Part shown: in pieces, positions 7,537 through 59,591 of the stretch
Layout: every line of letters starts with the position of its first letter
Position numbering within the stretch: the stretch's first letter is position 1
Source of the DNA: Flavobacterium ginsengisoli
GTDB lineage: Bacteria; Bacteroidota; Bacteroidia; Flavobacteriales; Flavobacteriaceae
Direction of reading: 5' to 3'
DNA length: 64,000 nt
Assembly (NCBI RefSeq): GCF_029625315.1
Contig: NZ_CP121110.1
Span: 4,244,501-4,308,500 of the forward strand
Position numbers and translations under genes: made by a program
Notes under the pieces: generated by a model
What the model saw: the letters and a program-made list of their open reading frames with translations, nothing else
Databases searched by the model: none
Told to the model about the DNA's origin: nothing

Positions 7537-8041
7537 ATGGAAATGAAGATTGTCGTTTTATTTTTGTTTTTTGTTTTTAATGCGAAAGGCGTTGCTCAAT
7601 GTGAAATAAAAAATAGGGTGCAGGCAGATGGGAGTATGATCTACTATTTTGAGCCAGCAGACTTTTTACACTACAAAATCAAAATCGTTGAAAATTAATA
7701 TTGTTACAGACAAAGAACATTATTTCGTAGCACTGCAGCCCACGCCTTTTCCTGATAAGAAAGAAGGGAAAAAAATTAAGGACGATTTAATAATTCTTCT
7801 AGCAGATAACAAAACATATAAGCTAGCACATTACGATACTCAATATCGACGTAACGATTCTATAATGCAGGTACTTTATTTGATTGACGATAAAGATCTC
7901 GATGCATTTTCTAATTACGAAGCTGTAAGTGCAGATATCAATATGCAGGGAACTGAATTTGTGCGAAGCTATAATTTTAAGCTTCATAAAAATGCTATTG
8001 TTGAACAGCTTAAATGCTTTTTGAAGAAAGAAGAAAACTAA
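7537..8041 (+). CDS. Small secreted protein of unknown function (frameshifted)
   Basis: The ATG at 7537 opens MEMKIVVLFLFFVFNAKGVAQ, a signal peptide, and continues to IYYFEPA. The remainder (FYTTKSKSLKINIV to the C-terminal LKKEEN) is in the next frame. Removing one A at 7661, inside GCAG[A]CT, restores a continuous 167-residue protein reading EPAAFYTTKSK. Without that correction only a 130-residue fragment from a TTG codon is open. No family recognised; it lies convergent to the DUF2490 gene with 2 bases between them. Confidence 0.6.
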
Positions 8042-8043
8042 TT

Positions 8044-8848
8044 TTATTCTTCGTCTTTTACTTCAGGATGTTTTTTGGCTTCAATTTTCTTTTTAAGGTT
8101 TCGAAAAAAATTATTGAAACTTATAGTAAGCGAAGCGGCGTTGGTTGTTTGGTTTCCATTATTTCTTGGAAGATATTCGTTGCAATACGTTAATTCAACC
8201 TGAAAATCATCTGTAAATAAATAACCAGCACCAATATTGAATCGATTTCGATCAAAAAAACTTTCTCCAGTAACATTTGCTCCAGATTTAAAATAAAGTT
8301 CATCTGATGCAATCGCATATACGACTCCGCTTCTTAAAAATTTACTGTTAATGGGCTGTATATATTTAATCTGTTGTCGATATCTAAAAACGTTTTCATA
8401 TTGATCATCATCATTTTTAATATGACGATATTCAGTACGCATTCTTGTACTTAAAGTGTAGCCTGTTTTGTGAAAATAATAAATGCCTTGAAGAGCAAAG
8501 CGCCATTCGGGAGATTCGAACTGACCAATTTCGGGAACATCTCTATTGCTGAAATAGGCAACAAAGGCGGAGAGTTTCCATCTGGGAGAAAAGTAATAAT
8601 GTCCCCAACCTCTAATGGATCTTTGAATAGTGTTTTCGAATAAATTTGGAGATGATTCGGAACTGCTATAAGCTGCAGACAAAATCAATTTCGGTTGCCC
8701 ACTTTTTGCTTAAAGTCTGATTGAACTGTAATTCATTCCAAAACTGATTATACGTAGTATTTTGTCCGTAGCTGTTTGTAATTAATAGAATTACAAACAG
8801 GCATCGGAATATTGTAATTTTTGATTTTGAATTAGATTTTGAAAGCAT
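8044..8848 (-). CDS. DUF2490 family outer-membrane protein (frameshifted)
   Basis: Begins MLSKSNSKSKITIFRCLFVILLITNSYGQ, a signal peptide, then the DUF2490 opening NQFWNELQFNQTLSKKWATEIDF. After one extra base at 8679 the second frame gives AAYSSSESSPNLFENTIQRSIRG and the rest of a beta-strand-rich protein (RTEYRHI, RYRQQIKY, FNIGAGYLF). Corrected length is 267 residues. DUF2490 proteins are predicted outer-membrane beta-barrels of unknown role. On the + strand the extra base turns GCAGC into GCAGAC. Confidence 0.72.
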
Positions 8849-8901
8849 TAATTAAAGGTATTTAATTATTTCATTCGCATCTTAATCTCTCAATGTATTT
8901 T

Positions 8902-9637
8902 TTAGATTCTTTGTCTAACAGCTTCGTATAGAAAAGCACCACAGGCAACAGAGACATTTAAGGATCCTATTGAGCCGAACATTGGTAGCTTGGCCTTTTC
9001 GTCTACTATTTTTAAAACAGAAGGATTTATTCCTCGGTCTTCAGATCCCATAATAATGGCTAATGGTTCTGATAATGATATGTCATATATGTTTTGATCT
9101 GTTTTTTCAGTTGCTCGCTACTGTTTTAATTCCAGAACCTTGCAAATAGAAGATAGCATCTTTTATATGTTCAACTTTGCAGATAGGCACATTGAATACA
9201 GCTCCAGCTGAAGTTTTAACAGTATCACCGTTTACAGGAGCTGAACCTGCTTTTTGTATAATGATTCCATTAACTCCAGTACATTCTGCTGTTCTAATAA
9301 TAGCGCCAAAATTTCTAGCATCTGATATTTGATCTAATATTAGAAAAAGAGGCTTGCTGCCAGACTCAATTGTAGATTCTACTAAATGCTCTAAATCAAT
9401 AAAACCAATAGGAGAGATGGTTGCTACTGCACCTTGGTGATTATTTGGTGTAAGACGATTTAATTTTTCTACAGGAACATAAGAGAAGTTTACGTTTGCA
9501 CGTTTCATTACCTTCATTAAATCTTTCATAAGTTCACCAGAAATGTCTTTCTGAATGAAAACTTTATCCACTTCTTTTCCTGCTTGAATCGCTTCTATGA
9601 TGGCTCTAATGCCAAATATTTGATGTTCTTTTTCCAT
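8902..9637 (-). CDS. rlmB: 23S rRNA (guanosine-2'-O-)-methyltransferase RlmB (frameshifted)
   Basis: SpoU/TrmH-family methyltransferase. From the ATG at 9637: MEKEHQIFGIRAIIEAI, substrate-binding region, then SPOUT motifs LDQISDARNFGAIIRTAE and, after the frameshift, IIMGSEDRGINPSIL and SIGSLNVSVACGAFLYE. It methylates a guanosine in the 23S rRNA peptidyl-transferase region. An extra C at about 9115 (GCTGC read as GCTCGC) splits it; corrected length is 244 residues. The upstream start at 9676 (MVFFYINITY) would run through the promoter and was rejected. Confidence 0.9.
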
Positions 9638-9641
9638 TGGA

Positions 9642-9649
9642 CAAATATA
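9642..9649 (-). promoter_or_regulatory. Probable -7 promoter element of rlmB
   Basis: TATATTTG on the minus strand, 4 bases before the rlmB ATG and just downstream of the Sus-operon terminator. This supports independent, leaderless transcription of rlmB. Confidence 0.5.
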
Positions 9650-9663
9650 GGTAATGTTTATAT

Positions 9664-9693
9664 AAAAAAAAACCATCCCAATTTGGGATGGTT
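9664..9693 (-). terminator. Intrinsic terminator of the SusC-SusD-SusE operon
   Basis: On the minus strand AACCATCCCAA / TTGGGATGGTT forms a stem followed by a T tract. It lies 24 bases after the last gene of the operon. Confidence 0.85.
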
Positions 9694-9716
9694 TAGTTTC
9701 ATTGTTAAAAGAAGAA

Positions 9717-10938
9717 TTAGTCAGCTAAAACTCCTTCTTTGTATGAGAATTTCAATTCTTGACTTGTAGTTCCTTGAACTTTGTCAGTAATTTTGATGAT
9801 TCCAGTGTAAAGAACATCTTGGAAATCTGGATCTGATTCAGTTCCAAAGTTTACTGATCTTGTGATTTTGTAAACAATAACATCACCAACTACCAAATTA
9901 GTTAAAGATGTAACTTTAGTACCTGCGTTGTAAGCATTCTCAGCGACAAATAAGTTAGCAGTTGAGTAGTTTACAGTATTGTCTTTTACGAAATCGATAC
10001 TAACTCCTTCTGATGTAGCGAAACCAAATGGGCTAACGAAATCAATTTCAGAAGCTTCATGGTCTCCAGTTTTGAAACTGAATGTTGACTCACTGTCAGA
10101 AATGTTTCCATTGTGAGAAGCACCAAATACTTGATCAGCAAAAGTTACTGTTGTAGTAATCTCATCTGTTTGAGTTCCTGAAGTTATAATAAATTTGTAA
10201 GTAATTTTATCTCCAGCAACAATTCCACCATAAGTAGAATATGGATAACTATTCAAATCTATAGTCTGTTTAGTAGCAGGCAATGTTCCAGGTAAATTAG
10301 TAAATGTACCAGTATCATTTTTAGACCATTGTCCAACAATACTTGTGATTGTTGTAGCAGCTTTAGTAAGTGGAGCGATATGCACTTCATAAGCAGCAGG
10401 ATCATTAAATTTAATTGCTGAGATACCACTTGAAGTACTGTTTACAAGATCTCCATCAGCGTTTACTACTTGCCAAGTAATTGCTTTTCCAACTACTAAA
10501 GAAAAAGGAGCTCTTGATGTTGTTCCATCAGAATAAGTTGCAAGAATTGCTAATTCAAACGTTCCTGTTTTTCCAGTTAAAGTTGTTACACCACCTTCAG
10601 TTACTGGGAAATTGTCGAAACTTCCTAATGTAGAAGTATTGAAAGTAGCTTTTCCTTCACTTAAAGTTGCATCTGCTACTTTGTCTCCAAATACGATAGG
10701 ATCTGTTGGAGGTGTTTTTGCGAGCATTTTTGAAAATTTCAACTTTAGTCACAGTTACACCTTCTTTAGTGTATGTGTTAAGTGGCAGGTTGTAGTTGTT
10801 ATCCAAACGACTTATACTAGTCGTTGTTGGAACTGCATTACCTCCTGTAGTTGCAAATTCCATATTGTCATCTGCAGAACATGAAGCTAAAGTTGCAATA
10901 AATGCAAATGCGGCTATCTGTTTAATGTATTTTTTCAT
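9717..10938 (-). CDS. SusE/SusF-like outer-membrane lipoprotein (frameshifted)
   Basis: Signal MKKYIKQIAAFAFIATLASC with lipidation Cys20, then a Ser/Thr-rich beta protein of about 406 residues once one extra base at about 10722 is removed (GCAGC read as GCGAGC). The first frame ends at VEIFKNA and the next continues KTPPTDPIVFGDKV. Repeated beta-sandwich-like segments resemble SusE/PKD-type surface glycan-binding lipoproteins. It is the last gene after SusC and SusD, 22 bases downstream of SusD. It may hold the ligand at the surface; the ligand is unknown. Confidence 0.68.
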
Positions 10939-10960
10939 ATTTGTACTGTTAAATATAATA

Positions 10961-12427
10961 TTAGTGTTTGTCCCAGAAAAGTTTAGTAGTTACAGCATTG
11001 TTACCCAATTTTGCAACTGCAGCTTCTAAGTTTGCGACGTTTAATGTCTGCTCGATTCCTGGATAAGAGTAGCGTTTTGGAACTTCAGTGATGTCACCAA
11101 ATGTTACAGGTGGCGCAACTAAAGCAGGGAAGTCTAATCTTCTGTAAGAAGTCCAAGCTTCAAAACCTCTATTATAGTAAGCAATCCAAGATTGTTCTCC
11201 AATTTTTTGTTTCCAAGTTCCTGTTGCAGTAGCATAAGCTACATCAGATCTTGTTAAGTAAGCGACGATATCACCAGCAGCTACACCCCAATCTTGTAAA
11301 GATGCAGTTACAGCAGCGTTATAGTGAGATTCAGCAGTACCTCCAACAGCGATACCTCTTTCTACAGCTTCAGCTAATAAGAATTCAACTTCAGAATACG
11401 TGAAAATTACACCTGGATAAACTGGATCTTTAATAGTTTCAGTAATGTGAGAGAAGTTTCCGTAAATGTTAACTGTTCCGTATACACCACCTTTGTATTG
11501 TCCTGATCCTTCTGGGTACTCAGTGAAGTATTTAGATCTTCTTGGGTCAGAAAGAGCATTCAATTTGTTAACAAATGTATCAGCAGGAACGAAGTCATTA
11601 CGTCCACTAGCTACTAAGTCAAGATATAACGGGTTGTTATTTGTTGTATTTGTAGCGTAAGGCATGTAAGCACCATCAGCACTAGATGTGATTAATCCAT
11701 CTTCTTTAGCCGCTAAAGCTTGTGTGCTAGCGTAAGCGTGATCAACGTCATCCATCATGATAGCCATTCTGAAACGAAGAGAGTTAGCAAACTTAGCCCA
11801 TTTTGCAGTGTTACCACCGTAAATAAGGTCAGCACTACCATAACTGTCAGCAGATTGATCTAATTTATGAGATGCATTAGTTAATACAGTAAGTAAATCT
11901 CTGTAGATAGTTTGAGCGTCATCATATTTAGGTTGTGGATGATTTTCAATATCTAAAGCTTCTGTATAAGGAACATCTCCAAAAGTATCAACTAAGATAC
12001 CGTAGCAGTAAGAAGTTAAAATGTCGATAATTGCAAGTTTATTTTCAATTACCACTAAACCATCAGCAGTTCCAGTGTAGCTTGCTTTTTGCTCTAGCAA
12101 AAGTGTTTTAGCTTCTTTAAAATCTCTTAGTACATCACGGTAGTAAGTAGCCCAGTGACGATCTGGAATTGTACGTCCAGTAAGGTCATATTGAGTTTCT
12201 TGTGGGTATTGTACTTCTGTCCATTGCTGAGCATATAATCTGAATACGTTGAAGTTAACAGATGTGCTAGTAACCTGATCCATCATGAATTTCTCTGCAT
12301 TTGTAAATAAAAATTCAGGAGAAGTAGTGGTAGGGTTTTTTGTGTCTTGGTTCATGTTCCCAAAATCATCAGAGCAAGATGAAAATAAGGCAATGAACGA
12401 TATTAATATTATTAGTCTATTTTTCAT
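10961..12427 (-). CDS. SusD/RagB-type outer-membrane lipoprotein (SusD-like_2 group)
   Basis: A 488-residue protein with a lipoprotein signal ending FSSC (Cys18), followed by SDDFGNMNQDTKNPTTTSPEFLFTNAE. Helical SusD features include RLYAQQWTEVQYPQE, the EAKTLLLEQ helix, RFRMAIMMDDVD and EVEFLLAEAVERG. SusD-like proteins form the surface lid over the SusC channel and capture substrate. It lies 3 bases downstream of SusC. The pattern fits the SusD-like_2 family, often found with peptide or unidentified substrates. Confidence 0.9.
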   Translation of the reverse strand: MKNRLIILISFIALFSSCSDDFGNMNQDTKNPTTTSPEFLFTNAEKFMMDQVTSTSVNFNVFRLYAQQWTEVQYPQETQYDLTGRTIPDRHWATYYRDVLRDFKEAKTLLLEQKASYTGTADGLVVIENKLAIIDILTSYCYGILVDTFGDVPYTEALDIENHPQPKYDDAQTIYRDLLTVLTNASHKLDQSADSYGSADLIYGGNTAKWAKFANSLRFRMAIMMDDVDHAYASTQALAAKEDGLITSSADGAYMPYATNTTNNNPLYLDLVASGRNDFVPADTFVNKLNALSDPRRSKYFTEYPEGSGQYKGGVYGTVNIYGNFSHITETIKDPVYPGVIFTYSEVEFLLAEAVERGIAVGGTAESHYNAAVTASLQDWGVAAGDIVAYLTRSDVAYATATGTWKQKIGEQSWIAYYNRGFEAWTSYRRLDFPALVAPPVTFGDITEVPKRYSYPGIEQTLNVANLEAAVAKLGNNAVTTKLFWDKH

Positions 12428-12430
12428 AGC

Positions 12431-15400
12431 TTAGAATTTTATTGTTAAGTTACAACCAATATTTCTAGTTGTTGGTAAAGAACCGATAGAAAGTCCTTGA
12501 GATCCTACGTTAGATCCTAATCCACTTTCTGGGTCTGCATCTGGAAGATTCTTTTGGATGATCCATAAGTTAGATCCGATAAGTGAAATTCTAGCATCAA
12601 CTAATTTCATTTTTTGAACTAATGAAGATGGTAAAGTATAAGTAATGTTTACCTCTCTTAATTTGATAAATCCAGCATCGTAAACAAATTGACTTCTTGG
12701 TCCGTTAGTGTAAGCATTTGTAATAGCTCCACCTGTAGAGTAAGCAGTTCTTGTTGTGTTTGGAGTTCCATCAGCGTATACACCTGGAAGGATAACACCA
12801 CCACCATTTACTAAACTATTTCTTTTTGGATTTCCAAGATCATTGTTTCCACCTGTTTCGTCAGTTAAACCAGTTCCAACTCCGTACCATTGGTCAGTAG
12901 AGAAAACATCTCCTCCGTGTTTAACATCGATTAAGAAGCTGAAAGATAAGTTTTTGTATGCGAATTTGTTGCGGATACCTCCAATCCAATCAGGATTGAT
13001 GTTTCCAATAATATTGTTTGTAGAAGTATTGATTACGTATCTACCAGTTGCTGGGTTAACGATTCTTTGTCCGTTAGCATCATAAGTATAATCTGTTCCT
13101 TTCAATACACCAAATGGTTGTCCAACAACAGCATTTAAAGTTACTGTACCAGGGAAAGAAGATACTTGTAAGTTACTTACACCATCAGCCAAAGCTGTAA
13201 CCATGTTTTCGTTTTTAGACCAGTTCACATTAACATCCCAAGAAAAACTATTTGTTTTAATAGGAGTAACGTTGAATTGAACCTCGATACCTTTGTTTTC
13301 TACTGTAGCAGCGTTAACATATTTAGAAGTATAACCTGTAGCAGTTGAGTAAGGTACTCTTACAGCTTCTCCGTCATTCACGTTTTTGTATAAACTCACG
13401 TCAAATCCAACTCTTCTGTTTAAGAATTGCATCTCAAGACCGATCTCTTGTGTATTAGTTTTAATAGGTTTAAGATCTGGGTTGTTTTTAATAGAGTTTA
13501 CAGAATACATTTGGTTATTGTTGAACGGATCGTATTTTGTATAAGTATCAACCAATGCTAATGCAGGTGTTCCTAATGGGCTTTCAGAGTAACCTCCTCT
13601 TAATTTACCAAAACTTAACCAGCTAGCATCAATGTTTTTAGAGAAAACCCAGCTACCAGAAACAGAATAACTTGGGATGCTATTGTCGCTTGCAGGCAAG
13701 TTTGAGAAAGCATCTCTACGAGCAGTTGCATCGATGAAATATGTATCTAAATATCCTAAAGAAGCTGAAATGTAGTAACTGTTAACAGAAGCTTTAGTTT
13801 CTCTTTCGTATGGGTATGGGCTTGCAGCTTTAGAGTTTGATAAACTGTAAATACCAGGGATAATTAAACCTCCTTGAGTAGAAGCTGTAATTTGGTTGAA
13901 ATAAGTGTTTCTTATTGTTCCCCCAGCTACTCCACTTAAACTAAAATCTTCTCCGAATTTTTTGTTGTAAGTAAGAATCAAGTCATAGTTTTGCTCAGAG
14001 AAGTTACCATTGTAACGTTGGTATCCTGAAGTCTCGTCAAGAGCATTGATACCAAAAGTTTTTGCAACAGATCCTACAGCAACTCTTTCTTCACGAATCT
14101 CAGAATAAGTATCTGTAGAGATTTTTCCAGTTGCAGAAAGCCAGTCTGTAATTTTGTACGTTAAGTTTGCATAACCGATAAAACGATTTCTACTATCGTT
14201 TTGGTAGTTTTGGTAACGCTCAAAGTAAGGGTTGTTCCAGTATGCAGGAGATCCATCGTCAACAGAAGTTCTGTTCCAAGTGATGTTTTGTCCGCCTGAA
14301 TTGTTGTATGCTTGTTGTAATTGTTTAATATCAACGTTTGTTTGCCACCATTGACGGAAACCAGAAACTAAGTTGTCGCTGTATCCTGTCATGTTTCTAC
14401 CAACTGTTTGTTGTGCAGAAAAGTTAGCAAAAGTACTTAAAGACAATCTGTCTGTAAATTGGTGGTTTAATTTTAAACTGAAGTTATTTTTTCTTAATTC
14501 ACTATTAATTAAAACACCAGTTTGGTCAGTATTTGTATAGTTAAATACAACATTTGTTTTTTCATTTCCATCTTCAAAAGAGATACTGTTCACTAAAGAA
14601 AGTGAGTTTTTGAAGAAAGTGAAAGGATCGTTTGCGACAGCTTGCCATGGAGTTGCTTTTCCGTAGTTAGCATTTCCTGGGTATGCAGAGAATGCATCCC
14701 ATTGGTAAACATTCAATGAAGGATCAAAACGGTTACCTACAGAAGCATCATCTCCCATAAGAACTACTCTATCATTTACACCGTCACCATTAATATCTTG
14801 TGTAGTGTCAAAAGAAGCACCGTATCCAGCTCCATAATTTTTTTGGTATTTAACGAAAGTGCTTTTGTCAGGACTACCAGTTACTACTTCAGAAGAAACA
14901 GTGATTCCTAATCCTTTTCTAGCTTTACCTTTTTTAGTTGTAATCATTAAAACCCCGTTACCAGCTAAGTATCCGTATAATGCAGAAGCCGCAGCACCTT
15001 TTAATACGTTCACACTTTCGATATCTTCTGGATTAATGTCCATCGCGTTATTACCGTAGTCAAATCCTCTAGATCCTGATGATTGAGCTGTTGTTCCGTC
15101 GTTTGTGTTGTTAGCGTTGTTGATTGGCATACCATCAATAACGATTAACATCTCATTACTTTGACCAATAGCTTTAACCCCTCTAGAAATTGCACTTGTA
15201 GAACCTCCAAAGTTAGTGTTTCTTGTAATGTTAACACCGGCAACTTTACCAGAAAGTTCGTTTAAGAAGTTACCACTAGAAGTACCATTTCTTAAATCTC
15301 CTCCTTTTACCTCTTGTGTTGCATAACCAAGAGATTTTTTCTCTCTTTTAACACCTAAAGCTGTTGTTACTACAACGCTTTCAAGTTCTTGAGCATCTCC

Positions 15401-15685
15401 AGCCAATTTTACGTTAACTGTTGATGAAGTTGCGACTATTTCTTGAGTTTTCATCCCAATGTAGCTAAATACCAATACTTGGCTTGATGATGCTTTGATA
15501 GTATATTTACCATCAAAATCGGTTTGCGTTCCAGCTTTGGTTCCTTTAACTAATACACTAACACCTGGTAGAGGCATCCCTGCATTGTCAGAAACTGTTC
15601 CCGAAACAGCTCTTTCTTGCGCAAAAGAAAGTTGCGCAACTAGTACTAATAAAAGCACTAAGAATCCATTGAACTTTAGTTTCAT
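12431..15685 (-). CDS. SusC/RagA family TonB-linked outer-membrane transporter
   Basis: A 1084-residue receptor: signal peptide 1-22 (ending LSFAQ), a carboxypeptidase-regulatory-like domain at about 25-100 (VSGTVSDNAGMPLPGVSVLVKG), a plug with the TonB-region VVVTTALGVKREKKSLGYA and VIDGMPINN, then a 22-strand barrel ending in aromatic KF. It imports a large ligand energised by TonB. First gene of the minus-strand operon with SusD and SusE. Intact, and the longest open frame in the window. Confidence 0.95.
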   Translation of the reverse strand: MKLKFNGFLVLLLVLVAQLSFAQERAVSGTVSDNAGMPLPGVSVLVKGTKAGTQTDFDGKYTIKASSSQVLVFSYIGMKTQEIVATSSTVNVKLAGDAQELESVVVTTALGVKREKKSLGYATQEVKGGDLRNGTSSGNFLNELSGKVAGVNITRNTNFGGSTSAISRGVKAIGQSNEMLIVIDGMPINNANNTNDGTTAQSSGSRGFDYGNNAMDINPEDIESVNVLKGAAASALYGYLAGNGVLMITTKKGKARKGLGITVSSEVVTGSPDKSTFVKYQKNYGAGYGASFDTTQDINGDGVNDRVVLMGDDASVGNRFDPSLNVYQWDAFSAYPGNANYGKATPWQAVANDPFTFFKNSLSLVNSISFEDGNEKTNVVFNYTNTDQTGVLINSELRKNNFSLKLNHQFTDRLSLSTFANFSAQQTVGRNMTGYSDNLVSGFRQWWQTNVDIKQLQQAYNNSGGQNITWNRTSVDDGSPAYWNNPYFERYQNYQNDSRNRFIGYANLTYKITDWLSATGKISTDTYSEIREERVAVGSVAKTFGINALDETSGYQRYNGNFSEQNYDLILTYNKKFGEDFSLSGVAGGTIRNTYFNQITASTQGGLIIPGIYSLSNSKAASPYPYERETKASVNSYYISASLGYLDTYFIDATARRDAFSNLPASDNSIPSYSVSGSWVFSKNIDASWLSFGKLRGGYSESPLGTPALALVDTYTKYDPFNNNQMYSVNSIKNNPDLKPIKTNTQEIGLEMQFLNRRVGFDVSLYKNVNDGEAVRVPYSTATGYTSKYVNAATVENKGIEVQFNVTPIKTNSFSWDVNVNWSKNENMVTALADGVSNLQVSSFPGTVTLNAVVGQPFGVLKGTDYTYDANGQRIVNPATGRYVINTSTNNIIGNINPDWIGGIRNKFAYKNLSFSFLIDVKHGGDVFSTDQWYGVGTGLTDETGGNNDLGNPKRNSLVNGGGVILPGVYADGTPNTTRTAYSTGGAITNAYTNGPRSQFVYDAGFIKLREVNITYTLPSSLVQKMKLVDARISLIGSNLWIIQKNLPDADPESGLGSNVGSQGLSIGSLPTTRNIGCNLTIKF

Positions 15686-15769
15686 TTTTAAATATTTTGA
15701 ATTAGTATCGCAAAACTCTTAATAATTTGTTAACTTTCCTAATAAATAAAAATCTTTTTTTGGTAAACT

Positions 15770-17476
15770 TTAAAATTTAACATTATAACATATGTTTACG
15801 ATAGTGTTATATAATTGTATTTCTTGCTGATTTTCCTGACCATTCGTGAGAATAATTCGTAAAATTCCGTTTTTTGTTTGTATTCCTGCACCTATCCCGA
15901 TTCCTATTAAATTCTTAATTTTTTTAGGATTTGAAATATTGGTTAAGTCTTGATATATAGCGTAATCCGTAATTGAATGAATGTATGCGCTTTTTGAAAA
16001 CATATATCGATATTCTGTAAGAATTGCTGAATAAAAGTTTGCTTGAAGACTATTTTCTGAAAATCCTCTAATTGAGTTCATTCCGCCAAATCGAAATAAT
16101 TCGTTCGAAATGTAATTTTTACTGTCTAAGTAAAAATTTTGAGAATTTATGTTAATGTAATTTTTGCTATTTAGTTCAAAATTATATGTTGCATTTAAAT
16201 TTAGGTAGAATTGTTTGCTTGGATCTGCGGTCTCAGGATCATTATTTGTTTCTCGTTTTCCAAAACCTACGATTGTGCTTAAAAAAGCTTTTCCAGGCAT
16301 TAAGCTATTATTTGGATCTATTCTTTTGTATTCATATGTGGATGTCAGATAGGAGTTGTTGAAATCGCTAATTGTAGAATTGTTGGCGTTTTGAATATCG
16401 CTCGATTCGGTTGACTGATAACCAAGATAGATTTTAGAATTGTAGTTTAAATAATAGCCGAGATTAATATCTGTTTTTGTATTCTGAAAAGTACTGTCTT
16501 GTTTAAAAATGTTTAATTGTGCCTTTATTCCAAGTGGTGATTGAAATAGATATGGAATCTCAAGCTTTGTGTTGAAAGTTTTTTGTTGATTTCCGTCGCT
16601 TTTCCAGTATAAGGAAAATTTTTCGCCAGCTCGAAGTATATTGGTTAATGAAATATCTAGGTAGCCATTTAATATTAGCTTTTTGTTTTCGTCATTGGAA
16701 AAGCCAATATAACCATCAAAATTGTTTGCTTTCCTTTTGTCAAGATAGGTATAGACTTTGGTTGAGTCTGGTGTAAATAAAATTTCTGGGTATTTAGGTT
16801 GAGAAACAAACTCAAAGCTATTGATGTCATCATGAAGTTTTTTGACAGTTTCTTGATTGAAAGTTTTGTTTAGGTATTTTTTGTTTAGTTGTTTTACTGC
16901 TCCTTTCGGAAAATAATCTTTTAAAGCAGGATTGGTATAATTTATAATAATGGAATTTAGGGTTCGTTTTTTTTCGGAATTAAAATTTAAGTCAGCGTAA
17001 ATTATCGAATTCTTTTTTTTGATATTTTGTAGTTTGATTTTAGAAAATGCAAAACCTGCTTTTTCATTCTCTGATATTTCTTGATTTAAGAAATTTTCAA
17101 GTTCTGAATAAGGTATAATTATGCTGTCATTTTCTGTTTTTTTTGACTCATGAGAAAAATTATTTATACCTATATATATATGTACTTCTTTTATTCTGTT
17201 TTTTAGATCTATTAAAACGTTATATATGGTGTCGTTTGTTCTTTTGTTTTCCAGTACTTTAGAGTCAATATAGCCTTGTTTTGCAAGTCTGTTTATTACT
17301 GTCGTAATTTCGCTGTTTATTGATTTAATATTTGGATGTTTTTTTGTGTAAGAAATCGAGTCAATGGTTTGATTCTGTTTTTTATTAATTCCGTTTATAT
17401 TAAGGTAGAAAGATTGCGCAAAACAATTAGCCGATAAGAGAAAAATGAGTATGTAATAAAATTGTTTCAAAAGCAA
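15770..17476 (-). CDS. Omp85/TpsB-like outer-membrane protein with POTRA-like N-terminus
   Basis: A 568-residue protein with signal peptide MLLKQFYYILIFLLSANCFAQ. Residues about 25-240 look like POTRA modules (NRLAKQGYIDSKVLENK). A beta-barrel follows with the L6 signature FRFGGMNSIRGFSEN, matching the VRGF/Y motif of Omp85 proteins, and a terminal aromatic residue. Family members insert or export proteins or lipids across the outer membrane. The sequence is shorter than BamA or TamA and no partner gene adjoins, so the cargo is unknown. It is divergent from rpsL. Confidence 0.75.
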   Translation of the reverse strand: MLLKQFYYILIFLLSANCFAQSFYLNINGINKKQNQTIDSISYTKKHPNIKSINSEITTVINRLAKQGYIDSKVLENKRTNDTIYNVLIDLKNRIKEVHIYIGINNFSHESKKTENDSIIIPYSELENFLNQEISENEKAGFAFSKIKLQNIKKKNSIIYADLNFNSEKKRTLNSIIINYTNPALKDYFPKGAVKQLNKKYLNKTFNQETVKKLHDDINSFEFVSQPKYPEILFTPDSTKVYTYLDKRKANNFDGYIGFSNDENKKLILNGYLDISLTNILRAGEKFSLYWKSDGNQQKTFNTKLEIPYLFQSPLGIKAQLNIFKQDSTFQNTKTDINLGYYLNYNSKIYLGYQSTESSDIQNANNSTISDFNNSYLTSTYEYKRIDPNNSLMPGKAFLSTIVGFGKRETNNDPETADPSKQFYLNLNATYNFELNSKNYININSQNFYLDSKNYISNELFRFGGMNSIRGFSENSLQANFYSAILTEYRYMFSKSAYIHSITDYAIYQDLTNISNPKKIKNLIGIGIGAGIQTKNGILRIILTNGQENQQEIQLYNTIVNICYNVKF

Positions 17477-17567
17477 TTGTTTTGTTAGTTAAATGTAAAG
17501 CAAATATCTAATGTTTCTTTGTTAAATCATAGATATAAATAATGTTGTTGAAAATTAATGATTTAAC

Positions 17568-17599
17568 GTTTGTATACTGAAAAATATTTTATACATTTG
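17568..17599 (+). promoter_or_regulatory. Promoter of the rpsL operon
   Basis: TTTG at 17569-17572 and TACATTTG at 17592-17599 with a 19-base spacer match the Bacteroidota -33/-7 consensus closely. The resulting leader of about 45 bases contains CCCCGTAAAAAGCGGG, a possible small hairpin. Confidence 0.75.
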
Positions 17600-17652
17600 C
17601 AACCCCGTAAAAAGCGGGAATTTAATAAACATAATAATTTTTAGTATTAATT

Positions 17653-18036
17653 ATGCCAACAATTCAACAATTAGTAAGAACAGGAAGAACTCAGATCACT
17701 AAGAAGAGTAAATCGGTTGCTTTAGATTCTTGTCCTCAAAGAAGAGGGGTTTGTACGCGTGTTTACACTACTACACCAAAAAAACCAAACTCTGCAATGC
17801 GTAAAGTTGCGCGTGTACGTTTGACAAATGGTAATGAGGTGAATGCTTACATCCCAGGAGAAGGACATAATCTACAAGAGCACTCGATAGTATTAGTGCG
17901 AGGTGGAAGGGTAAAAGATTTACCAGGTGTTAGATATCATATCGTTCGTGGAGCGCTTGACACGTCAGGAGTTGCAGGAAGAACGCAAAGAAGATCTAAG
18001 TACGGTGCTAAACGCCCAAAAGAAGCAAAAAAGTAA
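17653..18036 (+). CDS. rpsL: 30S ribosomal protein S12
   Basis: A 127-residue protein starting [12 protein letters not shown], with the decoding-site loops [15 protein letters not shown] and [15 protein letters not shown]. It lies at the 30S decoding centre. The Lys in PKKPNS is the usual streptomycin-relevant residue. First gene of the str-like operon: rpsL, rpsG, fusA, rpsJ; no tuf gene is present in the cluster. Confidence 0.98.
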
Positions 18037-18060
18037 TTTAAAAACTTTTAAGAAAAAGAC

Positions 18061-20707
<2,647 letters not shown>

Positions 20708-20717
20708 TTTTAAGAAA

Positions 20718-21023
20718 ATGAGTCAAAAAATCAGAATAAAACTAAAATCTTACGATCACATGTTGGTAGATAAATCTGCTGAAAAGATCGTAAAAACAGT
20801 AAAAACTACTGGAGCGGTTGTAACAGGTCCAATTCCGTTGCCAACTCACAAAAAACTTTTCACTGTATTGCGTTCTCCGCACGTTAACAAAAAAGCGAGA
20901 GAGCAATTTGAAGTAATGTCATACAAGAGATTGATTGATATTTATTCATCTTCATCTAAAACAATTGATGCTTTAATGAAACTTGAATTGCCAAGTGGTG
21001 TTGAAGTAGAGATAAAAGTATAA
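20718..21023 (+). CDS. rpsJ: 30S ribosomal protein S10
   Basis: A 101-residue protein starting [14 protein letters not shown], with the assembly loop [30 protein letters not shown]. Part of the 30S head and of the NusB antitermination complex. In E. coli rpsJ heads the S10 operon; here it closes the rpsL-rpsG-fusA unit and is followed by a strong terminator, then a new promoter before rplC. Confidence 0.98.
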
Positions 21024-21045
21024 TTTTTTTTATATTTTTTTATAT

Positions 21046-21078
21046 AAAAAGCGAGTCAGAAATGTCTCGCTTTTTTTT
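21046..21078 (+). terminator. Intrinsic terminator after rpsJ
   Basis: AAAAAGCGAG / CTCGCTTTTT stem with a 10-base loop, then T to 21078. It separates the rpsL-rpsJ unit from the rplC unit. Confidence 0.85.
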
Positions 21079-21328: not shown

Positions 21329-21360
21329 TTTGGTATATTCAATTTTAATGTCTACTTTTG
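21329..21360 (+). promoter_or_regulatory. Promoter of the rplC (S10-spc) transcription unit
   Basis: TTTG at 21329-21332 and TACTTTTG at 21353-21360, 20 bases apart, match the Bacteroidota consensus. It follows the rpsJ terminator and lies 69 bases before rplC. Confidence 0.7.
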
Positions 21361-21364
21361 CACT

Positions 21365-21402: not shown

Positions 21403-21429
21403 AATTTTAGTAATTAATAATTAATATTT

Positions 21430-46563: not shown

Positions 46564-46573
46564 ATTTTGACAA

Positions 46574-47557: not shown

Positions 47558-47584
47558 ACTTAAGATCAAGATAAAATAGATCAA

Positions 47585-48976: not shown

Positions 48977-49037
48977 ATTGGTTTTGTGATTATTGTAAAA
49001 TGAAGTAGTAAAAACTGCGTCATCATAAATAAAAAAA

Positions 49038-49502
49038 ATGAATTGGTACGTAGTTTATACAAAACCTAAATGGGAAAAGAAAGTTGCAGATAGACTTATT
49101 CAACAGGGAATAGAGTGTTATTGTCCATTAGTAACACAAGTAAAGCAATGGTCAGATCGTAAGAAAAAAGTTGAAACACCTCTTTTTAGTTCCTATGTTT
49201 TTGTTCAATTAGCTGATTCAGATCGTAATTTAGTCTTTCAAGTTCAGGGAGTAGTTAGGTACCTATTTTGGTTGGGAAAACCCGCAATTGTAAAAGATCA
49301 AGAGATTGAAATTATTAAAAAGAGTTTAACGGCTCCAAACCTAAGTGATATTTCAATTTCTAGTATTCAGGTTGGAGATAAAATCAAATTAGAATCAGGC
49401 GTATTTAGCAATCAGAATGCAATAGTTCAGCAGGTATCTAGTAATTATTATGTGCTAGTGCTAGAAACATTAGGATGTGTTTTGAAGATAAAGTATAAAT
49501 GA
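49038..49502 (+). CDS. UpxY family transcription antiterminator (NusG-like)
   Basis: A 154-residue protein: MNWYVVYTKPKWEKKVADRL is the NusG N-terminal domain, CPLVTQVKQWSDRKKKVETP and LFSSYVFVQL continue it, and about residues 110-154 form the KOW domain (IQVGDKIKLESGVFSNQNAI). UpxY/LoaP-type NusG paralogs travel with polysaccharide loci and let RNA polymerase pass termination sites in them. Here it lies inside the locus, directly before a promoter and structured leader. Confidence 0.9.
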   Translation: MNWYVVYTKPKWEKKVADRLIQQGIECYCPLVTQVKQWSDRKKKVETPLFSSYVFVQLADSDRNLVFQVQGVVRYLFWLGKPAIVKDQEIEIIKKSLTAPNLSDISISSIQVGDKIKLESGVFSNQNAIVQQVSSNYYVLVLETLGCVLKIKYK

Positions 49503-49656
49503 TTTAAAAAATTAAGATGCAACAGAAGAGAAAGTCATTTTATGATTTTTTTCTTCTGTTTTTTATTATGTATTTATTTACAGTCTGATTAATAGATTGT
49601 TGGAAAAATTAGTTTTTTTTTAGTAATTCGTTTTGTAAGTATTACGGGAAACCGTA

Positions 49657-49687
49657 TTGAATAACTAGACTTATTATGTTATATTTG
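49657..49687 (+). promoter_or_regulatory. Promoter downstream of upxY
   Basis: TTG at 49657-49659 and TATATTTG at 49680-49687, 20 bases apart. It should start the transcript that carries tviB and the genes after it. Confidence 0.65.
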
Positions 49688-49709
49688 CCGAAAATGATTA
49701 ATTTAGGTA

Positions 49710-49746
49710 TCTGAGTCAGAATTTTGTGACTGAGAACGGCGAAGCC
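49710..49746 (+). promoter_or_regulatory. Structured leader element before the tviB-like gene
   Basis: TCTGAGTCA (49710-49718) and TGACTGAGA (49727-49735) pair except for one G-G mismatch, and GGCGAAGCC (49738-49746) forms a second tiny hairpin. The element lies in the roughly 90-base untranslated leader just after upxY. It may be the site where UpxY is recruited, as ops/RfaH or LoaP hairpins are; this is inference from position. Confidence 0.45.
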
Positions 49747-49780
49747 ATGAGTTTTATTGACCAGAAATAAATTAAAAAAT

Positions 49781-51069
49781 ATGAATTTGAAAGCTAAAGT
49801 AAAAATTGCAGTTATAGGTTTAGGTTATGTGGGACTACCATTAGCTCGATTATTTGCTACAAAATACCCAGTAGTGGGATTTGATATAAATGAATCACGA
49901 GTAGAGTCTTTAAGATCTGGAACAGATACTACTTTAGAAGTAGAAGATGATGTCTTAAATGAAGTTTTAGTAGATAGTTTAGATGGAGAAAAAGGATTGT
50001 ATTGTACTACATCAATAGATGATATTAAAGAATGTAATTATTATATAATCACTGTTCCAACCCCTGTCGATAAAAATAATAGACCTGATTTGACTCCCTT
50101 GTATAAATCAAGTGAAACGGTTGGAAAAGTTTTGAAAAAAGGAGATGTCGTTATTTATGAATCGACTGTCTATCCGGGAGTAACAGAAGAGCAATGTGTT
50201 CCCGTTTTAGAAAAAGTTTCAGGCTTAAAATTTAACGAAGACTTTTTTGCAGGATATTCTCCAGAAAGGATAAATCCTGGTGACAAAGAACACACAGTCG
50301 AAAAGATATTAAAAGTTACTTCGGGCTCAACTACTGAAATAGGTTTAAAAGTCGATGAACTATATAAGTCTGTAATTACGGCAGGGACACATTTGGCACC
50401 TACAATAAAAGTTGCAGAAGCAACAAAAGTTATTGAAAACTCTCAGCGTGATATTAATATTGCTTTTGTTAATGAATTGGCTAAAATATTCAATTTAATG
50501 AATATTGATACCCAAGAGGTACTTGCAGCGGCATCGACAAAATGGAATTTTTTGCCTTTTAAGCCAGGACTTGTAGGTGGACACTGTATTGGTGTTGATC
50601 CCTACTATTTAGCACAGAGAGCGCAAGAATTTGGTTATCATCCTGAAATAATTTTAGCAGGAAGACGTTTAAACGATAGCATGGGGGAATATGTCGCTTC
50701 GCAAATCGTAAAGTTGATGATAAAAAAGGTATTTCTGTTAATGGCGCTGAATTATTAATGCTGGGCATTACTTTTAAAGAGAATTGCCCAGATGTAAGAA
50801 ATACTAAAATTGTTGACGTGGTAAGAGCTTTGAAAGAATACGGAATATTGGTGAGTATATTTGATCCCCTTGCAAATGCACATGATGTAATAAAAGAATA
50901 CAATTTAGTAACATTTAACTCTATTCCAGATAATAAATTTGACGCTATAGTTCTAGGAGTTTCACATTCTGAATTTTTAGAATTAGATTTTGCTAAACTG
51001 CAAAAAAAGAATAGTTTATTATATGATGTTAAAGGAGTCTTAGGGACTATAGCTGATAATAGATTATAG
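49781..51069 (+). CDS. tviB: Nucleotide-sugar dehydrogenase, TviB/VipA type (frameshifted)
   Basis: [20 protein letters not shown], then [54 protein letters not shown] and the Cys motif [15 protein letters not shown] match UDP-GlcNAc/GalNAc 6-dehydrogenases. One A is missing from the A6 at 50722-50727; the restored reading gives [20 protein letters not shown]. Corrected length 429 residues from the ATG at 49781; the frame reaches an earlier ATG-like start at 49757 that falls inside the leader. It forms the uronic acid of a UDP-HexNAc. Confidence 0.92.
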
Positions 51070-51096
51070 GTCTAACCTTTTTTTATTTTAGAGAAA

Positions 51097-52104
51097 ATGG
51101 AAACAAAAAATTCAATAGTACATGTGGTTTTAACAGGAGGTGTAGGTAGCAGATTATGGCCACTTTCACGTAAAAGCCAGCCTAAACAATATCTAGAAAT
51201 ATTTGAAGGTAAATCTTTATTTGAAATGACTGTTGAACGTAATAGTCACTTGGCAGATAAAGTAATGGTTGTTGGTAACGTTGACAATCATCATTTAAGC
51301 GGTAAAGTAATGGAAAAAACTAAAACTTCGTACATTAATATTGTAGAAGCAACACCAAGAAATACTGCTGCGGCTATTGCCTTTGCTGCCTTTGCTTCAA
51401 AGTCAGACGATATACTAATTATTACCCCTTCTGATCATATTATTGATAAAATGGAGGATTATAATGCAGCAATTCAAGAAGCAATTTCAAAAGCTAATGA
51501 CGGATTTATAGTTACTTTTGGAATCATTCCAACAAAACCAGAAACAGGCTATGGTTATATAGAATCCAAAGGTGATGAAGTATTATCATTTCGTGAAAAA
51601 CCAAATGAAACCACGGCGAAGGAGTTTATCTCAAGAGGTAATTTCCTTTGGAACAGTGGAATGTTTTGTTTTAAAGCAGATGTTTTGTTGAATGAATTAA
51701 AACAATTTCAGCCGGATGTTTATGAAAAATCTAAAATAGTTTGGGAGGCATCTAAAGAAGGATTTTTGGATTTAGATTTATCATTGCAAATTCCATCTAT
51801 AAGTATTGATTATGCTGTAATGGAACGAAGCAAAAAAATAAAAGTAGTGCCAGCTTCTTTTTCATGGTCGGATTTGGGCTCTTTTGAGTCAGTATATGAA
51901 TATCTTGTTTCAAAAGGTCATCCAATAGATTCAAACGGAAATATGGTTATTGGATGTGACAGCCATACTACTTTCTTAGGATTAAGAAATACCATTTTTG
52001 TGCATACAGAATCTGCTAATTTAATTTTGCAAAAAGAAAATTCGCAAGATGTAAAAGATATATACAACGAATTAGAAAGACAAAATTCGGAATTATTAAA
52101 ATAA
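51097..52104 (+). CDS. manC: Mannose-1-phosphate guanylyltransferase
   Basis: A 335-residue nucleotidyltransferase with the pyrophosphorylase signature TGGVGSRLWPLSRKSQPKQY and the later motifs TPRNTAAAIAFA, ITPSDHII, FREKPNETTAKEF, GNFLWNSGMF and SFSWSDLGSFES. It makes GDP-mannose. It lacks the C-terminal cupin isomerase domain of bifunctional ManC/AlgA. gmd/fcl are not in the window, so whether mannose or fucose is the final sugar is open. Confidence 0.9.
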   Translation: METKNSIVHVVLTGGVGSRLWPLSRKSQPKQYLEIFEGKSLFEMTVERNSHLADKVMVVGNVDNHHLSGKVMEKTKTSYINIVEATPRNTAAAIAFAAFASKSDDILIITPSDHIIDKMEDYNAAIQEAISKANDGFIVTFGIIPTKPETGYGYIESKGDEVLSFREKPNETTAKEFISRGNFLWNSGMFCFKADVLLNELKQFQPDVYEKSKIVWEASKEGFLDLDLSLQIPSISIDYAVMERSKKIKVVPASFSWSDLGSFESVYEYLVSKGHPIDSNGNMVIGCDSHTTFLGLRNTIFVHTESANLILQKENSQDVKDIYNELERQNSELLK

Positions 52105-52122
52105 AGAAATCAAAAATATAAA

Positions 52123-53169
52123 ATGAAAAAAATTCTTATAACTGGCGGTGCAGGATTTATAGGATCACATGTAGTGAGACGTTTTGTAAATAAATATCCA
52201 GAATATCAAATTTATAATTTGGATGCCTTGACATATGCTGGAAATCTGGAAAACATTAAAGATATTGAAAATAAGCCTAACTATAATTTTATTAAGGGAG
52301 ATATTGTAGATGAAGCTTTTATAAACGAACTATTTTCTCTACATAATTTTGATGGCGTTTTACATTTAGCGGCAGAATCTCATGTAGATCGTTCAATAGA
52401 AGATCCCTTAGCATTTGTAAAAACAAACGTTATTGGCACAATGAATTTGTTAAATGCGACTAAAAATCAATGGAAGAATAATTTTGATAATAAAAGATTC
52501 TATCATATTAGTACAGATGAAGTTTACGGAACTTTAGGAGAAGAAGGATTATTTACAGAAACAACACCTTACAATCCTAATTCTCCTTATTCTGCTTCAA
52601 AGGCAAGTTCAGATCATTTTGTTAGAGCTTATGGTGAAACTTATGGTTTGCCTTATGTTTTAACTAATTGCTCAAATAATTATGGATCGTATCATTTTCC
52701 AGAAAAATTAATTCCTTTATTTATTAATAATATTATAAATAATAAACCTTTACCTGTTTATGGCGATGGAAATTATACAAGAGATTGGTTATTTGTTGAA
52801 GATCATGTTGCTGCAATAGATTTAGTTTTTCATAAGGGAAAAAATCATGAAACATATAATATTGGCGGTTTCAACGAATGGAAAAATATAGATTTGGTAA
52901 AATTACTTTGTCAAATTATGGATGAAAAATTAGGAAGAGCCAAAGGTACTTCTAGGGAATTGATTACCTATGTAAAAGACAGACCAGGTCATGATTTGAG
53001 ATATGCTATTGATGCTTCTAAAATAAATATAGAACTTGGATGGAAACCATCTGTAACTTTTGAAGAAGGCTTAGAAAGAACAATCAATTGGTACCTAAAT
53101 AATGAAGAATGGTTACAGAATGTTACATCTGGCACATATAAAGAATACTACAAAAAACAATACTCATAA
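52123..53169 (+). CDS. rfbB: dTDP-glucose 4,6-dehydratase
   Basis: A 348-residue short-chain dehydrogenase. GGAGFIGSHVVRRF binds NAD; HLAAESHVDRSIEDP; catalytic STDEVYGTLG and YSASKASSDH; NNYGSYHFPEKLIP and GDGNYTRDWLFVEDH. First dedicated step to dTDP-rhamnose and other 6-deoxyhexoses. rfbA, rfbC and rfbD are not in the window. Confidence 0.94.
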   Translation: MKKILITGGAGFIGSHVVRRFVNKYPEYQIYNLDALTYAGNLENIKDIENKPNYNFIKGDIVDEAFINELFSLHNFDGVLHLAAESHVDRSIEDPLAFVKTNVIGTMNLLNATKNQWKNNFDNKRFYHISTDEVYGTLGEEGLFTETTPYNPNSPYSASKASSDHFVRAYGETYGLPYVLTNCSNNYGSYHFPEKLIPLFINNIINNKPLPVYGDGNYTRDWLFVEDHVAAIDLVFHKGKNHETYNIGGFNEWKNIDLVKLLCQIMDEKLGRAKGTSRELITYVKDRPGHDLRYAIDASKINIELGWKPSVTFEEGLERTINWYLNNEEWLQNVTSGTYKEYYKKQYS

Positions 53170-56708: not shown

Positions 56709-56740
56709 AAATTTTATAACAAAAATCAATAATAACAATT

Positions 56741-57750
56741 ATGTTAGATAATAAAACAATATTAATTACTGGAGGAACAGGGTCATTAGGAAAGGCACTA
56801 ACTAAACATATACTTGAAATTTGTCCTACAATTAAGAAGTTAATTATTTTTTCTCGAGATGAGCAAAAACAATTTCAAATGGCTCAAGAGTATCCACAAC
56901 AGCAGTATCCTCAAATTAGATTTTTTTTGGGAGATGTTAGAGATGAACAAAGATTAATAAGAGCTTTTCAAGGGGTTGATTATGTTATACATGCGGCTGC
57001 TATGAAACATGTTCATTTGGCTGAGTATAATCCAGATGAATGTATTAAAACAAATATTGGAGGAGCTCAAAATGTAATACATGCCGCTATGCAAACTAAT
57101 GTGAAAAATGTTGTGGCTTTATCTACAGATAAAGCTTGTGCGCCTATTAATTTGTATGGAGCTACAAAATTAACATCAGATAAGTTATTTGTTGCGGCAA
57201 ATAATATTAAAGGAGTTAATCCTATTAGATTTTCAGTTGTAAGATATGGTAATGTAATGGGGTCTAATGGTTCTGTAATTCCATTTTTTATTAATAAAAA
57301 GAAGAACGGAAAATTACCAATTACTGATGTAGCAATGACACGTTTTAATATTTCTCTTCAAGGAGGAGTGGATATGGTTATGCATGCGTTAGAACATGCC
57401 TGGGGAGGGAAATTTTTATACCGAAAATTCCTTCATATAGAATAACAGATGTTGCAGAAGCAGTAGCTCCTAATTGCCCAATTGATATTGTGGGGATTAG
57501 ACCAGGTGAAAAGATACATGAAGAAATGATTACTGCGTCTGATTCCTTTTATACATATGATTTAGGGAAATATTATACGATTTTACCTTCTATTCCTAAT
57601 TTTAAACTTGATGATTATTTAAATCATTTTAAAGCAAAAAAAGTTGAAGAAGGTTTTTATTATAATTCAGGAACAAATGAAGACTGGGAGACTGTTGATA
57701 GTTTGAGAAGTTTGATAAAAGAACATGTAGATGCAAATTTTGAAGTGTAA
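56741..57750 (+). CDS. pseB: UDP-N-acetylglucosamine 4,6-dehydratase (inverting), PseB (frameshifted)
   Basis: First pathway step to pseudaminic acid. ITGGTGSLGKALTKHIL binds NADP, FSRDEQKQFQM, HAAAMKHVHLAEYNP, STDKACAPINLYGATKLTSD has the catalytic residues. One base is missing near 57410 in GGAGGGAAATTTTT; restored it reads GGEIFIPKIPSYRITDV, then GIRPGEKIHEEMI. Corrected length 336 residues. Stop overlaps the pseC start (TAATG). Confidence 0.93.
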
Positions 57751-58905
57751 TGAGAAATAAAGTTATACCATACGGTAGACAAGAAGTAACAGATGAAGAT
57801 ATTAAAGTTGTAATAGAAACTTTAAAATCAGATTTTTTAACCCAAGGACCGAAAATAAAAGAATTTGAGGAAAAATTTGCTAAATCGGTTGATGCTAGGT
57901 ATGCTGTAGCTGTCAATAATGCTACTGCAGGCCTTCATATAGCAGTTATGGCTCTTGGATTAAAAGAAGGAGACAGGGTAATTTCTACTCCAATTACTTT
58001 TGCAGCCTCAGCTAATTGTGCACGATTTGTGGGAGCAGAAGTTTGGTTTGCAGATATTGATCGGGATACTTATTTATTATCGCTCGAAAAAACAAGAGAA
58101 TTAATTTTAAGCAAACCGAAGGGCTTTTTTAAGGGAATTATTCCTGTAGATTTTGCTGGATTGCCTGTAAATTTAGAAGATTTTAGAAAACTAGCAAATG
58201 AACATGATCTTTGGATTTTAGAGGATGCTTGTCATGCACCAGGAGGATACTTTATAGACTCAAAAGAACAAAAACAATTTTGTGGAAATGGAGTCTATGC
58301 GGATGCAAGCAGTTTTTTCATTTCATCCCGTAAAACATATTGCGTGTGGAGAAGGAGGTATGGTCACAACAAACTCTGAAGAAGTATATAAAAAATTATT
58401 GCTATTGCGTTCTCACGGAATAACGAAAGAAAACATGTCAGAAAACCATGGAGGTTGGTTTTACGAAATGCAAACCTTAGGTTTCAATTATAGAATAACT
58501 GATTTTCAGGCTGCCTTAGGAATATCTCAATTAGCTAGAAATGAAAGAGGAGTTATCATTAGAAATGAAATTTCTGATCGTTATAAAAAAGCTTTTTTAG
58601 GAAAAGTGAAATTTCAAACTTTGCCAGAAAATTTTTTAAATGCACACCATCTTTTCGTAATTGAAGTCAATGATAGAAAAGGATTATATGATTATTTGCA
58701 TGAAAATAAAATATATGCCCAAATACATTATATTCCTGTTCATAAGTTGCCTTATTATAAAGAGATTGGATATAATACAGATACAGATTTGAGCAAATCA
58801 GAAGATTATTATTCAAAATGTATTAGTTTGCCAATGTACCCAACTTTGAGCGCTGAGGAACAAGATTTTGTTATAATGAAAACACTCGAATTTTTAAATG
58901 TCTAA
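57750..58905 (+). CDS. pseC: UDP-4-keto-6-deoxy-AltNAc aminotransferase PseC (frameshifted)
   Basis: PLP-dependent DegT/DnrJ/EryC1-family enzyme. IPYGRQEVTDEDI, VNNATAGLHIAVMALGLKEG, EDACHAPGGYFI and, after an extra A at about 58307 (GCAGC read as GCAAGC), AVFSFHPVKHIACGEGGMVT with the PLP-binding Lys. Corrected length 384 residues. It adds the 4-amino group on the pseudaminic acid path. Confidence 0.93.
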
Positions 58906-59591
58906 TCTTTGTATAATTCCTGCAAGGGGAGGAAGTAAGCGAATTCCGCGAAAAAACATCAAGTTATTTCTGGGTAAACCAATAATTGCTTATTCAATTG
59001 AAGCGAGCAATTAATTCTAAATTATTCGATGAGGTAATGGTTTCTACTGATGATCCAGAAATTGCTGAAATAGCAACAAAATTTGGAGCAAATGTACCAT
59101 TTTTCAGAACAGAAAAAACAGCAAATGATTTCGCTACAACTTTTGATGTAATTGAAGAAGTTCTTCTAAACTATAAAGATTTAGATCAAAATTACGATGT
59201 AGTTTGCTGTCTTTACGCTTGCGCACCGTTTGCAACTTCAATTAAACTTACTGAAAGTTTAGAAGTTTTAGAAAAGAATAATTATGATAGTGTTTTTCCT
59301 GTTATGCAATTCGGATTTCCTATTCAAAGAAGTTTAAAATTTGAAGATGATAAGATTAAATTTTTCTACCCTGAATTTAGTTTGTCAAGATCACAGGATT
59401 TAGAGAAAAGTTACCATGATGCTGGACAATTTTATTGGATGCAGGTTGATAAATGCTTGCCAGAAAAAAAGATTTTAACCGGAAATAGTGGGAGTATAGT
59501 TATTTCTGAAATGGAGGGTCAAGATATTGATAACGAAGTGGATTGGAAATTAGCTGAATTAAAATATGAATTGCTACAAAGTATTAAATAA
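58898..59591 (+). CDS. pseF: Pseudaminic acid cytidylyltransferase PseF (frameshifted)
   Basis: MSNLCIIPARGGSKRIPRKN carries the nucleotidyltransferase signature; the ATG at 58898 overlaps the pseC stop. An extra G at about 59005 (GCAGC read as GCGAGC) separates AYSIEA from AINSKLFDEVMVSTDDPEIA. Later DSVFPVMQFGFPIQRSLKF and YHDAGQFYWM are PseF-like. Corrected length 230 residues. It activates pseudaminic acid as CMP-Pse. Confidence 0.92.

Follow-up and report, generated by a model that had tools for sequence, protein, structure and literature searches.

Single-base insertions in GCAGC/GCTGC sites of a Flavobacterium ginsengisoli assembly as probable consensus errors at a methylated motif

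In this study, a 64,000-nucleotide stretch of the Flavobacterium ginsengisoli assembly GCF_029625315.1 (contig NZ_CP121110.1, positions 4,244,501 to 4,308,500; hereafter the window) was found to carry extra bases inside the pentamer GCAGC/GCTGC, written GCWGC below. These extra bases are very probably consensus errors of the assembly, probably of nanopore origin, that arose at 5-methylcytosine in GCWGC and do not exist in the DNA of the cell. A consensus error at a modified motif accounts best for the data, because misreads are found again in two distant parts of the genome, five congeners are clean at the same motif, the error spectrum points to the first cytosine, and a candidate enzyme that would fit is encoded. 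The essential genes rpsG, fusA, rplF, rpoA and eno are frame-broken at GCWGC sites. A preliminary description of the window had reported 12 single-base insertions in GCAGC/GCTGC and had considered modified GCWGC, misread systematically in the consensus, as their likeliest cause; the insertions were confirmed, and the cause is supported by the evidence given below. As double-stranded sites, however, GCWGC is identical to the asymmetric GCAGC set, which corrects the motif as it was described there.

An 8 kb piece of the window finds a match in 16 of the 18 relatives of the same genus that were searched. The window was aligned with G100, a genome listed as the same species, which shows 97-99% identity with the assembly in large aligned blocks of the region examined. 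In this alignment, 11 of the 12 reported insertions appear as one-base insertions of the assembly, each within a base of the position reported (Table 1); the one at 58307 lies in a stretch that is more diverged from G100. The twelfth, at 59005, lies outside the alignment, and the late start of the PseF profile match in the open reading frame (ORF) behind it is consistent with a broken frame. The aligned columns of the window contain 15 one-base insertions in all, 12 of them in GCWGC (the 11 reported ones and one at 2893); the three others (7530, 58792 and 60743) are all in diverged stretches. When only well-aligned columns are counted, with a mismatch of at most 5% within 60 columns on either side, all 10 one-base insertions are in GCWGC, the 99 sites of which correspond to about 0.9% of the 54,564 columns. 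As had been noted before, many sites are intact: 58 of the 99 match G100, and 41 differ. The gene names assigned earlier (rpsG, fusA, rplF, rpoA, eno, PseC, PseF and a UDP-sugar dehydrogenase) were borne out by family matches. A gene for an RlmB-type rRNA methyltransferase and a DUF2490 gene are affected in addition, and the family search gave no match for two affected ORFs (7649-8041 and 9717-10742).

The misreads are not confined to the window. Three regions of the 5,414,540-base single contig were compared with G100, namely 4.04-4.51 megabases (Mb) around the window, 1.00-1.10 Mb and 2.50-2.60 Mb, with 442,958 well-aligned columns in total. GCWGC sites differ from G100 at 209 of 431, 27 of 43 and 35 of 74 sites, respectively (another count of the first region, which skipped the ends of high-scoring segment pairs, gave 430 sites). 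Among the 271 differing sites of the pooled 548, 194 are substituted, 73 have gained one base, one has lost a base and three show larger changes; conversely, 72 of the 110 one-base insertions in the three regions are located in GCWGC. Substitutions affect 36% of GCWGC sites, compared with 4.7% for the median pentamer; GCWGC ranks first of 507 pentamers in this respect and also first for insertion. The earlier claim of insertions inside GCWGC thus holds, but not as the sole type of error, because insertions make up only about a quarter of the misreads (73/271) and are outnumbered by substitutions. In the window itself, 31 substituted sites had been overlooked, which frame repair could not reveal. 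Some of the differences at GCWGC are natural, because the string of the assembly is also found in a relative in 12 of 297 comparisons at differing sites.

An earlier comparison was made with three more distant congeners (G006, G015 and G008). The hexamer formed by GCWGC plus one base was found in 35 of the 53 one-base insertions that are specific to the assembly and covered by at least two relatives, where chance would give 1.5% of positions. Each of the three congeners also has one-base indels found in it alone (67, 46 and 63, respectively); of these 176, none lies in a GCWGC context. A count of indels per pentamer, as the preliminary description had suggested, was run against G006. Among pentamers with at least 20 placements, GCAGC/GCTGC had the highest insertion rate (18/272 vs 0.0009 elsewhere), with a Fisher p of 2.9e-27 that is only indicative, since overlapping placements are not independent. 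GCCGC, in second place (5/93), probably reflects sites with A or T in the assembly and C or G in the relative.

The kind of change indicates which base may be involved. Around the window, the C-T pair on the GCTGC strand becomes TC (79 sites), CC (28), TT (22), CTT (19), CTC (17), TCT (14) or CCT (1), which accounts for 180 of the 209 differing sites; over the three regions, 233 of 271 misreads are pyrimidine-only changes confined to this pair. Misreads occur in both site orientations. This spectrum would be expected if a mark on the first cytosine of GCTGC blurs the identity and number of pyrimidines for the basecaller, and it therefore points to the first cytosine as the modified base. The outcome at a site depends on its flanks at positions -2, +1 and +2, where mutual information exceeded that of all 500 shuffles. 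A longer motif dividing failing from intact sites was considered and set aside: these positions are informative, but they yielded no rule.

Five of seven relatives (G121, G069, G148, G006 and G015) served as controls; G008 was left out and G100 was the reference. GCWGC sites were kept at 38/38, 40/42, 24/26, 38/38 and 31/33, respectively, or 171 of 177 in total, and no insertion at GCWGC was found at these 177 sites in the five genomes; under other filters, one G069 insertion appeared at the edge of a site. The controls differ from G100 at 1.8-2.6% of bases, and the assembly at 0.6%. The control genomes inform little about the sequencing platform.

The search for a GCWGC methyltransferase, likewise suggested in the preliminary description, yielded a C5-cytosine candidate that would fit. 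Two C5 methyltransferase genes were found in the genome (G000). One of them, at G000:C1:4007468-4008451 and about 236 kb before the window (PF00145, 285 bits; TIGR00675), is convergent with a Vsr gene, and the ends of the two genes overlap (L002 1037-2439, about 4.01 Mb). The pair is kept in all seven of the relatives' loci examined, and orthologs with at least 80% identity occur in 13 other genomes among 150 searched. No nuclease was recognised from the ORF translations of the 3.9 kb Vsr locus, whose other ORFs were not run against family libraries. PF09504, the Bsp6I-type nuclease family, had no match in the genome, but the control likewise matched in no genome. Among the matches listed, the nearest plasmid relatives of the Vsr-linked enzyme are about 50-54% identical. 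The relative on the Lactococcus plasmid pAF22 adjoins a gene for a Bsp6I-family nuclease (PF09504, 35.9 bits), and a Priestia relative lies near Vsr and an NgoFVII-family nuclease. In C5 methyltransferases, the recognition region is found between the later conserved motifs, and some 30 residues in this part form a stretch that is nearly identical in the Vsr-linked, pAF22 and Priestia enzymes and absent from the second C5 methyltransferase of the genome. This second enzyme forms an HpaII-type pair with RE_HpaII (PF09561) at L001 1306-3629 (about 3.19 Mb of G000:C1) and probably acts on CCGG, the target of HpaII. MspI, too, is given with CCGG (PMC8936443).

The Vsr-linked pair resembles Dcm-Vsr in that a methyltransferase gene stands next to a Vsr gene. 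CCAGG, which belongs to the Dcm target CCWGG, has no indels and 10 substitutions in 192 placements; a basecaller trained on Dcm would, however, read it correctly in any case. On balance, although with considerable reserve, we favor the view that this pair, conserved in Flavobacterium of this group and with no recognised nuclease, is the GCWGC counterpart of Dcm-Vsr and methylates the first cytosine genome-wide, in which case the errors of one assembly would reveal target, base and strand without raw signal. The proposed course of events is as follows. The Vsr-linked C5 methyltransferase would mark the first cytosine of GCWGC, and the assembly would have been built from long reads of native DNA, probably nanopore reads. 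The basecaller would misjudge methylcytosine before T and write another pyrimidine pair or triplet, while reads of the GCAGC strand would be called correctly, so that the consensus would be close to a coin toss between strands. About half of the sites may appear intact because this strand vote is nearly even.

Several observations weigh against a consensus error at methylated GCWGC. The long-read, probably nanopore, origin is deduced from the assembled sequence. The assignment of GCWGC first-cytosine methylation to the Vsr-linked enzyme is likewise indirect, being inferred from its own sequence and the neighbours of its relatives. Among the misreads, 38 of 271 fall outside the pyrimidine pattern, and these are partly natural differences. 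Sites with equal two-base flanks agreed in outcome no better than shuffled ones (concordance 0.311 vs 0.316), so that no simple k-mer rule emerged. GCSGC, the sister motif, almost escapes misreading, with one insertion and 20 substitutions in 173 sites, even though GCNGC is the sequence given for enzymes of the Bsp6I type; this would require either an enzyme specific for W or a basecaller that reads methylated CpG correctly. By the same counts, GCSGC was too weak a candidate to be included in the error motif. In addition, frame-breaking insertions stand beside substitutions here, whereas the errors reported at the same pentamer in Listeria (see below) were mismatches.

The rival that survives best, although improbable, is a fault of the basecaller, coverage or polishing, or one intrinsic to the sequence, that strikes GCWGC without any modification. 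It would agree with the finding that flanks do not fix the outcome at a site, and the clean control genomes tell little about the effect of the platform. Against it stand the few misreads of GCSGC and the lack of indels in 192 placements of CCAGG. The changed pair also begins at the very cytosine that enzymes of this family methylate, and three congeners with near-complete genomes (G121, G069 and G148) are clean. A slightly smaller chance still is given to a modification made by some enzyme other than the Vsr-linked C5 methyltransferase, or to one of a different type such as 4-methylcytosine. GCWGC is described as a 4-methylcytosine motif in Chloroflexi, where M.AbaBS3I is backed by digestion (PMC6329791), and the methyltransferase search covered only some families, with two partial PF02384 (N6_Mtase) matches just above the cut-off. 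On the other side, PF01555 and PF02086 had no match in the genome, and the other C5 enzyme adjoins an HpaII-type nuclease, which leaves the Vsr-linked enzyme for GCWGC. Real mutations, produced by a mutator, by the methyltransferase together with Vsr or by gene decay, can practically be dismissed: the changes are present in the assembly, and C-to-T at the first cytosine (22/209 misreads) is the expected product of methylcytosine deamination, but the commonest change is a swap of C-T to T-C (79/209), which is no deamination product, and genes for ribosomal proteins, elongation factor G, RNA polymerase alpha and enolase are frame-broken. Methylation is also an unlikely source of true mutations, because G100 and the five controls share the methyltransferase (94, 94, 80, 95 and 89% identity in G121, G069, G148, G006 and G015) and yet have clean GCWGC. 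Programmed frameshifting was ruled out by the insertion at 2893, outside every ORF of at least 100 amino acids, and by the predominance of substitutions.

Errors of this kind, and even at this motif, are already known. In Listeria monocytogenes ST87, modification-mediated nanopore errors at GCAGC/GCTGC are reported to persist after polishing; they were mismatches, were removed by amplification, and a methyltransferase was suspected with M.BatI as the model (PMC10687267). The pentamer is the same here, but the host is Flavobacterium, the candidate enzyme is another one, and there are frame-breaking insertions as well as substitutions. For Klebsiella pneumoniae, nanopore consensus errors are described as concentrated at the C5-methylated Dcm motif CCWGG, with homopolymers as the second class (PMC6591954). 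The sequence of methylated-motif errors followed by homopolymer errors is shared with the present assembly, which differs from that description in its lack of CCAGG indels. Nanopore data of 32 species are reported to contain purine-only or pyrimidine-only ambiguous positions that are strand-dependent and attributed to methylation, with the motifs RACG/CGTY and a shared RA/TY (PMC11610573). The choice between T and C, or A and G, is common to both cases; the motifs in that report are others, and a term search of its main text returned no mention of insertions. In Neisseria, mismatches are linked to 5-methylcytosine (PMC12506013). As for the enzyme, GCNGC is listed for a Mycoplasma agalactiae homologue of Bsp6IM (PMC9465063), and M.BatI is given as an orphan C5 methyltransferase of the GCNGC/GCWGC type (PMC8936443). 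The Vsr-linked enzyme shares with this type the C5 fold family, the recognition-region stretch of the Bsp6I-partnered pAF22 enzyme and a first-cytosine target that would fit the spectrum. It differs in being chromosomal and placed beside Vsr, and it is likened to the type through the pAF22 enzyme, not through the sequences of Bsp6IM or M.BatI. No report of GCWGC errors in Flavobacterium was found in the open-licence PMC literature. What is new is the host, the size of the effect, the insertions that break essential genes, the first-cytosine spectrum and the Vsr-paired candidate enzyme.

Extrapolated to 5.41 Mb, the counts suggest that one false base was inserted about 900 times and that some 3,300 GCWGC sites are misread. 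This estimate is rough and includes some natural differences (4-5% for the median pentamer). Quality checks based on reading frames miss most of the misreads, because substitutions leave frames open. Gene presence, pseudogene counts and strain distances derived from this assembly are therefore unreliable pending correction with independent reads. Other affected assemblies might be recognised by a deficit of GCWGC combined with too many GTCGC and GCTTGC, and this signature might also hint at methyltransferase targets. The finding amounts to an artefact for which a probable cause can be named, and it matters chiefly for quality control. The completeness of the assembly is 95.5% despite its single contig, and most close relatives are 99-100% complete; false frame breaks are a possible cause.

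Table 1. Affected GCWGC sites in the window, in window coordinates.
Coordinates	Feature	Gene or ORF	Remark
214..52811	31 substituted GCWGC sites	four in the fusA ORF (18740, 19325, 19535, 20372)	a few may be natural differences
2890..2896	GCWGC with one extra base (2893)	outside every ORF of at least 100 amino acids	absent from the preliminary description
7657..10725	four GCWGC with one extra base each, near 7661, 8679, 9115 and 10722	ORF without family; DUF2490; RlmB-type; ORF without family	seen in the alignment with G100
18442..18687	two GCWGC with one extra base each, near 18443 and 18685	end of rpsG; start of fusA	
28691..28696	GCWGC with one extra base (28694)	near the 3' end of rplF	
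34022..34027	GCWGC with one extra base (34023)	rpoA	halves of rpoA in overlapping ORFs
36895..36900	GCWGC with one extra base (36896)	eno	A run near 37114 shortened as well
48631..48636	GCWGC with one extra base (48633)	UDP-sugar dehydrogenase gene (C-terminal domain)	
58304..58310	GCWGC with one extra base (58307)	pseC	two ORFs match PseC profile positions 2-180 and 178-376
59002..59009	putative twelfth site, GCGAGC (59005)	pseF	no G100 coverage; PseF match from profile position 31

Other classes of error were also found. Of the 13 one-base deletions in well-aligned window columns, 12 are at A/T runs of at least five (e.g., near 31953, 32988, 37114, 43314, 48515 and 50721). Among the 73 one-base deletions in the 4.04-4.51 Mb region, 55 are at such runs and eight at CCGG. 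Of 102 A/T runs of eight, 20 lack one base, and of 28 runs of nine, 13 lack one or two; these shortened runs fit a consensus made from long reads only. Around the window, CCGG lost a base at 8 of 140 sites and ranks first among the tetramers for deletion (the next is 1.3%), but in the two distant regions none of 41 sites did so, so that CCGG as a second error motif, although it would fit an HpaII-type system, was kept as tentative only. CCWGG was not retained among the error motifs. In an initial count, three assembly-specific deletions lay in the CCWGG context of the relatives; against G100, CCAGG shows no indels, and the deletion at region position 313543 proves to be a contraction of CCCGG. 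At 30551 of the window, CC is followed by a run of five G that lacks two bases compared with G100. In the window as read, GCWGC occurs 67 times despite the many misread sites, against a mean of 48.9 in dinucleotide shuffles, 1 of 100 of which reached 67. From 43381 to 59591, the window carries surface polysaccharide genes (a Wzc-like kinase, nucleotide-sugar dehydrogenases, PseC and PseF) and diverges from G100 toward its end.

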